64,000 nucleotides of DNA from a virus. The notes under the pieces are model-generated. The model was not told where the DNA came from. It was given only the letters and a program-made list of their open reading frames with translations, and made no database searches. The position numbers were made by a program, and so were the translations under genes. Position 1 is the stretch's first letter. Each line of letters opens with the position of its first letter. The stretch covers positions 1 to 64,000 of the IMG/VR virus record IMGVR_UViG_3300006802_000002. The stretch is one strand, 5' to 3'. Below, one piece after another: positions 47,376 through 60,430 of the stretch.

Positions 47376-47539
47376 TAGCCGAATTGAGCCTTAAAATCTT
47401 GCCCTTTTATCTTAGGTCCAGGCTTAGTTTTACGCATTGGGGGCATTTTAGCAGTATCTTGAAACTTTTTAGTCATTACATCACCACCAGTCTTTAGTTT
47501 TTGTACTGGATGGGCCTTTTTACCATTAATTCCTGACAT
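47375..47539 (-). CDS. Small Lys/Pro-rich protein
   Basis: 54 aa, very basic ([20 protein letters not shown] ... [18 protein letters not shown]). Overlaps the end of the glycosyltransferase by 14 bp and the next start by one base. Similar tiny basic proteins accompany phage terminase genes. Function unknown. Confidence 0.6.
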
Positions 47540-49313
47540 TTTCGTTCTCCTTACAGTATTTACGCCACAAAGTCTTTAAAATTCTAACAAAAAAGTATGG
47601 TTTAACCATAGATAAGTATTCTTTTACATTCTTTTCTCTAATATTTTTACGATATTCTACTAATTTATTATAATCGTTTGCAAATGAAACTGCAAGATTA
47701 ATATATTCTTCTTTAGTTTTAGTAATAAATTCTTCTAATTTACATTGAGTAAGAATTCCTGCACCATAACATCCCATAATTGTGTCACCACGTAAAGTAA
47801 TTACAGGGACGCCCATAGTTAAGGACTCAAAAGTTGTAGTAGAACCATTAAAAGCAAAGGTATCTAACTGTAAATCTACTTTATTATAACAAGATAAGTG
47901 ATTTCCGAAGTTATTATCACCTACATCAAAGATACATTTATCTTTTGGAATGTATTTTAATACTTTATTTTGGAATTCTGGGTTCTTCCAAAGCCCTTTA
48001 TACTTGAAATAAAACTTACAATTACATTTGCTAGATATTTGGTGCCAAGTTTCTAGCACTTTTTCGTTTAGTTTAGCTGGATTATTGAATACGCCAAAGG
48101 TAATATGCCCATTTGTAAGCGCTGGTAAAGCATTTGGCTCAGGCGCTTCTGCAAAATAGGGATGCTGATAGAACCTAGGCATGCCTATAATGCGCTCTAC
48201 ACCGATATCTTTAATATGTCTTGGCGCAAAATGCCTTCCAATTATAAGATAATCCATATTTGGAATAATAGTACGACCTGCGTCAAGATAAGAAATTTGT
48301 ATAGGGGCGGCCCTGTATGCAGCGATAAGAGGGCGATTACTATCAAACAGAGGACATAAATAGACCACAACATCACATTGATCTTCCCTAATCATTCTGG
48401 CAACTTGATCGTCAGATACACCATGAATACTAACGTATTTTACAGAACCTTGTCTATAAGCTTGTGTAATTTCATCTTCTTTTGGAGTATTGGCGTAACA
48501 CACAAACTCTACAAAGTTTCTATCTGTGTTAGTGAATACCGAGATAAAGTTACGACCTACAGGATGGGCGTATAAGTCGCTAGATACAATACCAACCCTA
48601 AGCTTTCTGTTGGGATTTAAATTATTCTTTAATTCACCAAACTTAATGTCTTGCTTTACGAATTTTCTAATCCATTCTTTTTGGGCTTCTTCTACAGCTT
48701 TTACATCTACTTCTGGGCAGTAAAGATAGCAAGTTAATAAGTTCTTAAATACGTCTGGAGAGTTTTCATTATATTTAGCCATTAATTTAGCGTACTTAAT
48801 AGCTTGTGTGTAATCCCCTAGAGCCTTATAAGCCAATCCCATATTGTTTACTGTGTATTCTTGTTCGGGGGCAATGGCTAGGCTAATATTATAATATCTG
48901 ATAGCCGCATTAAAATTATACTTTTTAAATTCTAACACTCCAAGAGTATTAAAACATACAGAGTCATATGGGCACATAGCATTATAGACTTTAGCCCATC
49001 TAATGCCCTCATCGTATCTAGAGCATCTATTACCTGCATCAGCACCATATGATGCAAACATAGCCATAGGGTCTTTGGCTACAGCATAGTAGTTTTTACA
49101 ATGCTCTAAGCAAGCTGGAAAATCAAATAATTGATATGTGACTAATACAAGATTGCACAAAGCTTCTTCTGAATATGGATCATGCTTTAATGCGCTCTCT
49201 AGCTGCTTTCTACATAATTCTTTTAGGCCCTGCTCAAAAGACTTTACAGCAAGGTTAATATCAGCAATTGCTTTTTGCCTATGCTTAAAACTGACTTTGG
49301 CTTTAATCTTCAA
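47526..49313 (-). CDS. TPR-O-GlcNAc-transferase-like glycosyltransferase (GT41)
   Basis: 595 aa, TTG start with AGGAG 6 bp upstream. Residues ~1-230 are tetratricopeptide-like helices (LCRKQLESALKHDPYSEEAL, YTVNNMGLAYKALGDYTQAI). The C-terminal ~365 residues are a GT-B SPINDLY/OGT-type domain: LRVGIVSSDLYAHPVGRN, CDVVVYLCPLFDSNRP, FGVFNNPAKLNEKVLETW and QLDTFAFNGSTTTFESLTMG followed by VPVITLRG, the UDP-binding loop. OGT-type enzymes attach sugars to Ser/Thr of proteins; the phage target is unknown, perhaps fibre or host proteins. It lies beside the fibre genes but has its own sigma70 promoter (49338-49366). Confidence 0.85.
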   Translation of the reverse strand: MKIKAKVSFKHRQKAIADINLAVKSFEQGLKELCRKQLESALKHDPYSEEALCNLVLVTYQLFDFPACLEHCKNYYAVAKDPMAMFASYGADAGNRCSRYDEGIRWAKVYNAMCPYDSVCFNTLGVLEFKKYNFNAAIRYYNISLAIAPEQEYTVNNMGLAYKALGDYTQAIKYAKLMAKYNENSPDVFKNLLTCYLYCPEVDVKAVEEAQKEWIRKFVKQDIKFGELKNNLNPNRKLRVGIVSSDLYAHPVGRNFISVFTNTDRNFVEFVCYANTPKEDEITQAYRQGSVKYVSIHGVSDDQVARMIREDQCDVVVYLCPLFDSNRPLIAAYRAAPIQISYLDAGRTIIPNMDYLIIGRHFAPRHIKDIGVERIIGMPRFYQHPYFAEAPEPNALPALTNGHITFGVFNNPAKLNEKVLETWHQISSKCNCKFYFKYKGLWKNPEFQNKVLKYIPKDKCIFDVGDNNFGNHLSCYNKVDLQLDTFAFNGSTTTFESLTMGVPVITLRGDTIMGCYGAGILTQCKLEEFITKTKEEYINLAVSFANDYNKLVEYRKNIREKNVKEYLSMVKPYFFVRILKTLWRKYCKENENVRN

Positions 49314-57922: not shown

Positions 57923-57992
57923 TCTAGTCAGCCAAGGGACAAACCCTCAATACCGAGGGAGCCCAATAGGCAACTAACTAGGAGTGTATATC

Positions 57993-58184
57993 ATGAATAA
58001 GTCTCTTTTCCTCGCTTGTGTCACTACCGCTAATGATGTCTTCTACCGTGTGCCGACCGCTGATGGTCGCGTGTCCACCCTCAAGGGGAACAAGCGTGAC
58101 ATTCTTAAGCAGGCTAAGGAATGGGCTCCCGAAGCCCCTGTGATTGCCAGCATGGACGACAAGGGTAATCTGATGATCGGTTAA
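57993..58184 (+). CDS. Hypothetical early protein
   Basis: 63 aa from ATG 57993 (AGGAG 9 bp upstream). NKSLFLACVTTANDVFYRVP then KRDILKQAKEWAPEAPVIAS, a strand-helix-strand small protein. Unknown function. Confidence 0.65.
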   Translation: MNKSLFLACVTTANDVFYRVPTADGRVSTLKGNKRDILKQAKEWAPEAPVIASMDDKGNLMIG

Positions 58185-58187
58185 CCC

Positions 58188-58247
58188 GTTATGCTTAATT
58201 TTGGGGGATGATTATTAAATTAATTGTCCCCCTTAATTAAGCATAAC
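58188..58247 (+). other. Long imperfect hairpin upstream of a small gene
   Basis: Arms 58188-58208 and 58227-58247 pair over 21 nt with two mismatches (13-bp outer stem, then GGGGGA/TCCCCC). Loop is AT-rich. No T-run follows; it lies just 5' of the ribosome site for 58262, so it may regulate or protect that message. Confidence 0.5.
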
Positions 58248-58741: not shown

Positions 58742-58876
58742 ATGCAAGGTCAATGGCAGTATTATAGTGACACTTATCATGAATGGGTTACTGTAAAGCA
58801 TCCCAACGCTAAATGGTATGCAGGTATTCTTAAAAGAGATTATGGATATCTTATTAGGCAAGTGTATACAGGATGA
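58742..58876 (+). CDS. Small aromatic-rich protein
   Basis: 44 aa, GGAG upstream. WQYYSDTYHEWVTVK and WYAGILKRDYGYLIRQVY. Overlaps next gene by ATGA. Unknown. Confidence 0.5.
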   Translation: MQGQWQYYSDTYHEWVTVKHPNAKWYAGILKRDYGYLIRQVYTG

Positions 58877-58983
58877 CACAAGATTGCTGGGCGTATTGGT
58901 GGGTTAAACGTACTGTAGCTAACCACTATAAAAAGCATAACTATATTATCATAGAGTTCTATAAGAAACATTTTCAAGTATAA
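58873..58983 (+). CDS. Small basic aromatic protein
   Basis: 36 aa: MTQDCWAYWWVKRTVANHYK then KHNYIIIEFYKKHFQV. Coupled to the previous gene by ATGA; its stop precedes the large structured region. Confidence 0.45.
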   Translation: MTQDCWAYWWVKRTVANHYKKHNYIIIEFYKKHFQV

Positions 58984-59016
58984 ACAAAAATTTACGAAAA
59001 AGACTGAAAATACCGC

Positions 59017-59045
59017 TTGCAACGGCCGATAGTTTCGATTATGTT
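59017..59045 (+). promoter_or_regulatory. Candidate promoter of the large structured RNA
   Basis: TTGCAA (59017-59022), 17-bp spacer, TATGTT (59040-59045); predicted start ~59052, seven bases before the first long stem. Same class as 54464 and 57894. Confidence 0.5.
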
Positions 59046-59051
59046 TGGTTT

Positions 59052-60420
59052 GTCAGACGGCGGAACCTAGAAAGTAGCGAAGCGACACAAGAGCCTTCCA
59101 AGCTTTCTAGGTACTGCCAGAGACAACGGCCGATGCGACGGGTAACTTAAATCACGCATCAAGAGACGGGCTAGGTACTCTTTAAATTCTCTAGCTAATA
59201 TCCCGAGTAAGGTGGGCGAATACCTTAAGGGGCCTTTCCTGTAGCAGTACAGGCATCTAGTCCGGTAATAGGCTAGGTTTAAAATAGGTGGGTTGGCTAG
59301 AGATAGCCGTTGCCTGGATCAGCAAAAACAAATTCGATTTGTTTATTAGGGAATTAATAAGCATTGGGTACGGATTGAGCTACCCGATAAAGAAGTTCCT
59401 GTTACAATTATCCAATGCTTATTAACCCTTAATGAAGCCTATCACGATATGAATTATCCTTAGCCACATCACATAGCATACTACTAAGATGATAGAAATG
59501 TTTTGGTAGGCTTCATTAAGGGTTAATTAATAAATTACTTAAAAGGCATGCCTCCTCCGTCCTAATTAAGTATGTAACAATTAATTAACCCTTACATTAC
59601 CCCTTGAGGACTACATTATACATGTGGTTTCACGCCTAAAAGACTGTTGTGCTATTTAAGAATGTCTAGATAGCAAAGGGCGACAGGAATAGGGAGATTA
59701 TTGTCCCCATATTTGGGGGATAAACAGCGGTAAAGGCATTGAAGCGAGGGTTTAGTCACTCTCGGGGAGCCTTTCGACAGGGCTTAGCTAACCCTGGAAG
59801 TCACTCCTAAAGACTATGGGAGTGGAGCCGCATATTAGATTGGGAAGTCCCTGTGGAAACTATGGGATAGCAGATAATGGTAATACGAGCCCTCGAAAGC
59901 GGCGTTACCTTCCCTCTGTTATTGCCGTGCGGCGGGTGGTTTTAATGTTACAGGATTACGTATTTAGAAATAAATACAGACAACATATGGCATTCAATAC
60001 CCCATATGGAAACGTTAAAAATATTCTGCGGGGTTAAAAGCCCTTATGTATAGGTGGGAGGATACAATGCCCATAATACATAATAGTAGAGCCTGGGACG
60101 GCAACCTTATTTACCCCTTAATAGGAAACTTAAGAAGCCCTATTAATTCCCCAAGTTTTCGGTTATCTTGCGGGTAGCAAAACCGTCAATATAGCGCGCT
60201 TATGTTTATAGATCAGGGGTGAGCCTGTAGACATAAGACAAACCATGATGAATGGGTTTAATAGGATATGCGTATTCCTCCAATCCGCTCTCTATCCCGC
60301 GCTATTATTTTATGGGCCTTCTTTAATGCTAAGATTACTTGTGTACATCCCAAGTAAGCTAAAGGTAAATCCCTTTACAGGCCCTTTAATTATCGCCAGG
60401 GTAGTGATACCCTTCAAATA
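59052..60420 (+). ncRNA. Candidate large structured non-coding RNA
   Basis: About 1.37 kb without a convincing ORF but full of stems: 59059-59074/59103-59118 (16 nt, one G-U, one mismatch), 59238-59253 with a GCAG loop, 59295-59308 with GAGA tetraloop, 59326-59344 (8 bp), 59354-59367/59412-59425 (14 bp), 59422-59441/59507-59526 (20 bp), 59520-59531/59580-59591, 59802-59807/59819-59824, 60118-60125/60139-60146, 60199-60211/60225-60237 (13 pairs with two G-U), long-range 60191-60198/60298-60305, 60335-60341/60351-60357, and 60398-60413 with GTGA tetraloop. G-U pairs and GNRA loops favour RNA rather than DNA structure. Size, ornateness and position near tRNAs resemble GOLLD/ROOL-class phage RNAs, but similarity was not checked. 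The only sizeable frame across it (59816-60037) has no family features. Confidence 0.65.
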
Positions 60421-60430
60421 ACATAGGCTT

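Follow-up and report, generated by a model that had tools for sequence, protein, structure and literature searches.

The plus strand of positions 59052-60415 very likely encodes a large structured noncoding RNA of ~1,370 bases, an assignment that is computational and in which the ends are inferred. It is supported by conserved synteny, by compensated base changes exceeding those of column-shuffled alignments and by conserved loops carried on covarying stems. That the segment forms a single continuous RNA of about 1.37 kb, as opposed to a leader or two RNAs, is likely. The RNA is apparently unreported. The window analyzed comprises positions 1-64000 of a 64,916-base IMG/VR virus record, which we assign to a 65-kb podovirus and distant relative of the HMO-2011 group. 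Phages of this group are common in the sea. The terminase is closest to that of Pelagibacter phage HTVC033P (54.5%), followed by HMO-2011-type phages (about 45-50%), and the phage also encodes an SU10-type portal, internal virion proteins, DNA polymerase A, ribonucleotide reductase and a rIIA-like protein. The RNA locus is bounded by a stop codon at 58983 and by the start of the next conserved gene (about 60470).

The 1.37-kb stretch 59052-60420 contains no credible ORF. Its three forward frames are interrupted by 42, 27 and 25 stops; of the 23 indels relative to the homologue in a related phage (contig L004), 14 are not multiples of three. The MFE of the stretch is -442.1 kcal/mol, compared with -376.8 ± 11.3 kcal/mol across 24 dinucleotide-shuffled versions (z = -5.8). 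The corresponding z was -2.8 and -3.2 for two equally long neighbouring stretches and -7.2 for the L004 copy of the RNA. Folding of the reverse complement also beat its shuffles (z = -4.3). When the window and L004 were searched against Rfam 15 with cmscan to E = 10, no match to GOLLD, ROOL, OLE, HEARO or an intron was obtained; at the gathering score and to E = 10, only chance matches were found besides tRNAs. The RNA thus very likely lies outside every Rfam 15 family.

Contig L004 was found by a protein-neighbour search through a 63% identical pyrimidine-dimer glycosylase, and a further contig, L084, through a 65% identical AAA ATPase. Because the proteins in their shared stretches are identical, the two appear to be contigs of one related phage. 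The RNA homologue was located by blastn at L004:2559-4806, in a syntenic location. A tRNA-Leu gene (61064) and a tRNA-Arg gene (61923) lie downstream of the RNA on the same strand in the window, and in L004 a tRNA-Leu likewise lies downstream of the RNA copy. Whereas coding DNA of neighbouring genes is about 67-78% identical in this phage pair, blastn identity across the RNA ranges from 94% (59148-59347) down to unalignable, with the strongest conservation at 59200-59340, in the 5' half. Loops and core strands are invariant in the alignment, while stems drift yet stay complementary, and length changes are mostly confined to loops and one linker.

To obtain a consensus fold, window positions 59001-60430 were aligned with L004 minus its insert and analyzed with RNAalifold. 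The consensus energy was -275.3 kcal/mol, compared with -163.5 ± 10 (best -183.5) for 28 alignments in which columns were permuted within 60-column blocks and conservation classes. Forty pairs were changed on both sides in a compensated manner and none was broken; the shuffled alignments gave 21.8 ± 4.2 such pairs, with a maximum of 33. Since only two distinct sequences are available, no R-scape-grade significance can be claimed for this covariation. The reverse-complement alignment also folded better than its shuffles (-225.8 vs -147.9), and the lower energy of the plus strand (-275.3 vs -225.8) indicates that it is the better RNA, in agreement with gene direction. At least two both-side changes were found in helices 59065-59075/59102-59112, 59422-59450/59498-59526, 59610-59616/59622-59628, 59745-59751/59758-59764, 59778-59782/59792-59796, 59801-59809/59817-59826, 60045-60050/60077-60082, 60264-60268/60293-60297 and 60315-60318/60380-60383. 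The MFE fold of the window sequence alone was rejected as a structure model, as 119 of its 452 pairs break in L004. Stems 59358-59370/59409-59421 and 60335-60341/60351-60357 look good by eye and are not conserved in L004.

These results bear on an initial annotation made from the sequence alone, which had proposed a large structured phage RNA; that reading is supported. Its claim that the stretch lacks a credible ORF held, as did its claim of many stems and long-range pairing, which the comparison confirmed for, among others, the 5' hairpin, the 28-pair helix and the 10-bp long-range helix (Table 1) and not for every stem. Both GNRA loops that it listed, GAGA and GTGA, are present, and only the GAGA loop is kept in L004. 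Its argument that G-U pairs favour RNA over DNA palindromes applies to the four-way junction, where 9 of 68 cells hold G-U pairs that the opposite strand would have as A-C. It had left undecided whether the RNA is GOLLD, ROOL or new, which the absence of a family match at E ≤ 10 answers as far as Rfam 15 goes. Absent covariation or a conserved protein frame had been named as refuting outcomes; both were examined and both favoured RNA, the covariation coming from two sequences.

Table 1. Features of the RNA and of the region preceding it, in window coordinates.
Feature	Position	Strand	Remarks
Conserved leader	58983-59045	+	A-rich stretch, TTGCAA (59017-59022), N17, TATGTT (59040-59045)
5' domain	59052-59698	+	Contains the near-invariant core
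5' hairpin	59065-59112	+	11-bp stem 59065-59075/59102-59112; 3 both-side changes; conserved interior GAAGCGACACAAGAGCCUUC
Near-invariant 5' core	59160-59335	+	About 96-98% identity with L004
Hairpins of the 5' core	59238-59253, 59255-59278, 59295-59308	+	Predicted fold; 59295-59308 is the GAGA hairpin
Long-range helix	59223-59232/59600-59609	+	10 bp; closes the 5' domain; identical in both phages; p 0.82-0.91
Long helix	59422-59450/59498-59526	+	28 pairs, all kept; both sides changed in 2
Variable linker	59699-59726	+	Between 5' and 3' domains; ~28 nt in the window
3' domain	59727-60415	+	Begins with the four-way junction
Four-way junction	59727-59831	+	Closing stem 59727-59731/59827-59831; arms 59732-59774, 59778-59796 (loop CUUAGCUAA) and 59801-59826
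3'-domain helix	59922-59937/60091-60104	+	Hairpins 60030-60044 (1 both-side change) and 60045-60082 (2 both-side changes)
Conserved 3' core	60105-60190	+	88-90% identity with L004
3'-terminal stems	60243-60255, 60264-60297, 60315-60383, 60398-60413	+	Both-side changes 1, 3, 3 and 1, respectively; GTGA loop in 60398-60413

Within the 5' domain, the stem below the GAGA loop (59300) shows a U-A to G-U change in L004, and the GTGA loop at 59404 is replaced there by TCGC. The strand 59504-59530 can pair alternatively with 59422-59444 or with 59581-59592, and both pairings are conserved. An element UUAACCCUU/AAGGGUUAA occurs in three copies here, such that 59519-59530 forms mutually exclusive conserved helices with 59422-59432 or 59581-59592; these alternative pairings could represent a conformational switch. 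A similar ambiguity concerns 60148-60187, which has three alternative conserved partners, namely 59199-59220, 59642-59688 and a local one. The fold model is therefore unsettled where conserved strands have several conserved partners, and switching at such places remains a possibility.

The linker is ~550 nt longer in L004 and includes two ORFs (L004:3447-3973), whereas the window copy has none. The first, behind a good ribosome-binding site, encodes 85 amino acids; the second is a Gly/Ser/Trp/Arg-rich repeat ORF. Relatives of the 85-aa protein are encoded close to a pyrimidine-dimer glycosylase gene on further phage contigs (L043:2035-2292, L044:2131-2875 and L057:127-972), so the ORF was probably inserted into the linker. 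The order of an 85-aa ORF followed by a Ser/Gly/Arg/Trp-repeat ORF is shared by L004, L044 and L057. For the 85-aa family only a weak DUF6897 hint was obtained, and Pfam searches with the linker ORFs gave neither a nuclease nor a reverse transcriptase. The idea that a linker ORF encodes an Sm-like RNA-binding protein found little support, with a poor structure model (pLDDT 42) and no PDB relative.

The four-way junction is the best-supported domain. All 34 of its pairs are kept in L004, with 10 changed on both sides; none of 500 shuffles scored as high, and neither did any alignment in which the partner was slid. The apical loops UUAGUC (59752) and AAGACUA (59810) are identical in both phages and could kiss. 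In the third loop (CUUAGCUAA in the window, CCUAGCUAU in L004) the palindromic UAGCUA centre (59785) is kept while the stem covaries. Near the 3' end, pairing of 60393-60397 with 59215-59219 is possible.

The ends of the RNA are less well defined. The initial annotation had given the RNA its own promoter at 59017; the hexamers are present there, matching 8 of 12 consensus bases, and promoter function is unproven. Promoter-like sites are not enriched in the region (8 found vs 7.8 expected from shuffles), and no copies of the putative promoter above chance were found elsewhere in the window. The A-rich stretch and -35 block (58981-59023) are nearly identical in L004, whereas the -10 element is not conserved, and a small ORF upstream of the leader (58873-58983) is absent from L004. 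Positions 59011-59019 can pair with 59204-59214 (p about 0.55). The leader may be a promoter or the 5' end of the RNA itself. At the 3' end (60415) no terminator was found, and within 60 nt another gene begins. Because of the missing terminator and the weak promoter, a discrete transcript is not shown.

Further homologues were sought in phage records by blastn, in IMG/VR using protein neighbours and RNA motifs, and in GTDB, and no distinct copy of the RNA beyond the window and L004 was found in these collections. RNA-motif matches other than L004/L084 proved upon inspection to be chance or coding. Run over 1.33 Mb of related loci, a covariance model built on the four-way junction recovered only the window and L004, and it gave no match in the whole records of HTVC033P, ctYwJ313, HMO-2011 and phiM6, whose annotated stretches also lack a kb-scale gap. 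Exact-pattern scans are liable to miss diverged homologues, and metagenome assemblies were outside the search scope. Noncoding RNA also goes unmentioned in a published account of HMO-2011-type phages (PMC9038755).

Several other features of the window were observed. Positions 352-451 (L004 9278-9387; 99% identity) are a tRNA by Rfam (57 bits) that ARAGORN missed, with an odd combination of a CUUAUAA anticodon loop (anticodon UAU) and a variable region of ~33 nt folding into two hairpins. A near-perfect 60-nt hairpin (58188-58247) directly follows ORF 57984-58184. The stretch 53540-53660 matches several places in L004 and L084 on both strands, indicating short inverted or direct repeats. On the minus strand, 47526-49310 encodes a TPR and glycosyltransferase-41 protein (O-GlcNAc-transferase-like) that is 78% identical in the related phage and without a relative in the phage collection.

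How such an RNA might work can only be inferred. GOLLD and ROOL are of phage origin, are often found near tRNAs and form RNA cages, a homo-14-mer in GOLLD and a homo-octamer in ROOL, with bridging kissing loops and the variable linker enclosed (PMC12286853). In the explanation that we prefer, segment 59052-60415 encodes one large noncoding RNA that folds on its own; comparison of the two phages supports a 5' domain containing the near-invariant core and a 3' domain that the variable linker connects to it. By analogy with GOLLD and ROOL, the RNA would start at a phage promoter immediately before it and would accumulate free, released from the downstream mRNA, and loop-loop contacts would assemble it into a homo-oligomeric scaffold or cage, the dispensable linker being looped out. 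Taken as a whole, we consider this explanation as likely to be wrong as right, and give the inferred GOLLD/ROOL-like homo-oligomer an even chance at best. The linker does tolerate the two-ORF expansion in L004. Dense tertiary or quaternary contacts would be expected to keep a core near-invariant against 67-78% coding identity; the position of this core at the 5' side is a point against a GOLLD-like explanation. The loop evidence for oligomerisation is merely suggestive and the support weak, because the UAGUC/GACUA kissing pair occurs in 20% of shuffles (P = 0.20) and two loop palindromes occur in 2.3% (P = 0.023).

The closest competitor, which we consider possible and less likely than not, is a structured RNA that acts as a monomer or together with a protein, for example as a decoy, as a ribozyme or in regulating transcription or translation of the host. 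The same fold and covariation evidence fits, very high conservation of the 5' core would suit a binding or catalytic site, and there are precedents in OLE, which binds proteins, and raiA, a monomer (PMC12286853). On the other hand, no protein family is conserved beside the RNA apart from small phage ORFs of an ordinary kind and unknown function, and known ribozymes or protein-binding RNAs were unmatched in Rfam. If the segment were instead part of the mRNA for the genes from 60470 onward, as a giant structured leader or as two distinct RNAs, this would account for the absent terminator at 60415, the next gene within 60 nt and the weak upstream promoter, and indel-rich stretches could separate modules. 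We consider this unlikely, since distant parts are tied together by 59223-59232/59600-59609 and, less surely, by 59215-59219/60393-60397; to our knowledge, no leader is anywhere near 1.37 kb.

Still less probable is a DNA element, i.e., a replication origin, packaging or recombination site with RNA-like palindromes. The reverse complement does beat shuffles in both tests, but the conserved multi-branched fold is better on the plus strand, G-U pairs occur in the four-way junction, and no GC-skew turn was found. A decayed mobile element or self-splicing intron can be practically dismissed. The ORFs inside the L004 RNA recall introns with peripheral ORFs; however, Rfam intron models were unmatched, the flanking ORFs are intact, the location is the same in both phages, and the L004 ORFs are by Pfam neither nucleases nor reverse transcriptases. 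A bolder version of the cage reading, which we think improbable, is that of a new, unrelated giant phage RNA family forming an RNA-only cage, with room for translated genes in its linker, as in L004; if true, a single molecule would serve as the cage and, looped within it, as an mRNA.

Giant ornate RNAs form a small group so far, and its phage members have no assigned function. A further family, apparently unrelated, longer and with ORFs in the linker of a relative, would point to more than one origin of such RNAs in phages. With its clear domains and early covariation map, the RNA offers a compact test case for whether cages are common among large natural RNAs. Like group I and II introns it has a large RNA fold with ORFs in a loop (in L004 only), but no catalytic core was matched and no exon is interrupted. 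OLE and HEARO are also large structured bacterial RNAs, and HEARO is linked to an ORF; their Rfam models were unmatched, OLE is not typical of phages, and the ORF embedded in L004 has no nuclease match while the window copy has no ORF. With ROOL the RNA shares an ornate phage structure near tRNAs, a variable linker and multiple long-range helices, although the Rfam model was unmatched and the RNA is twice as long as ROOL env-120 (659 nt). It is not assigned to GOLLD or ROOL because the covariance models fail and because its conservation is strongest on the 5' side, unlike GOLLD, which is universally conserved in its 3' region and less in its 5' region. The GOLLD covariance model was unmatched at E ≤ 10, and GOLLD is about 0.8 kb long, compared with about 1.37 kb here. 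Nevertheless, both RNAs are phage-encoded, longer than 800 nt and near tRNA genes, the present RNA has candidate self-complementary loops, and in both a variable linker separates two regions and may hold extra genes, tRNAs in GOLLD and two ORFs in the L004 copy.
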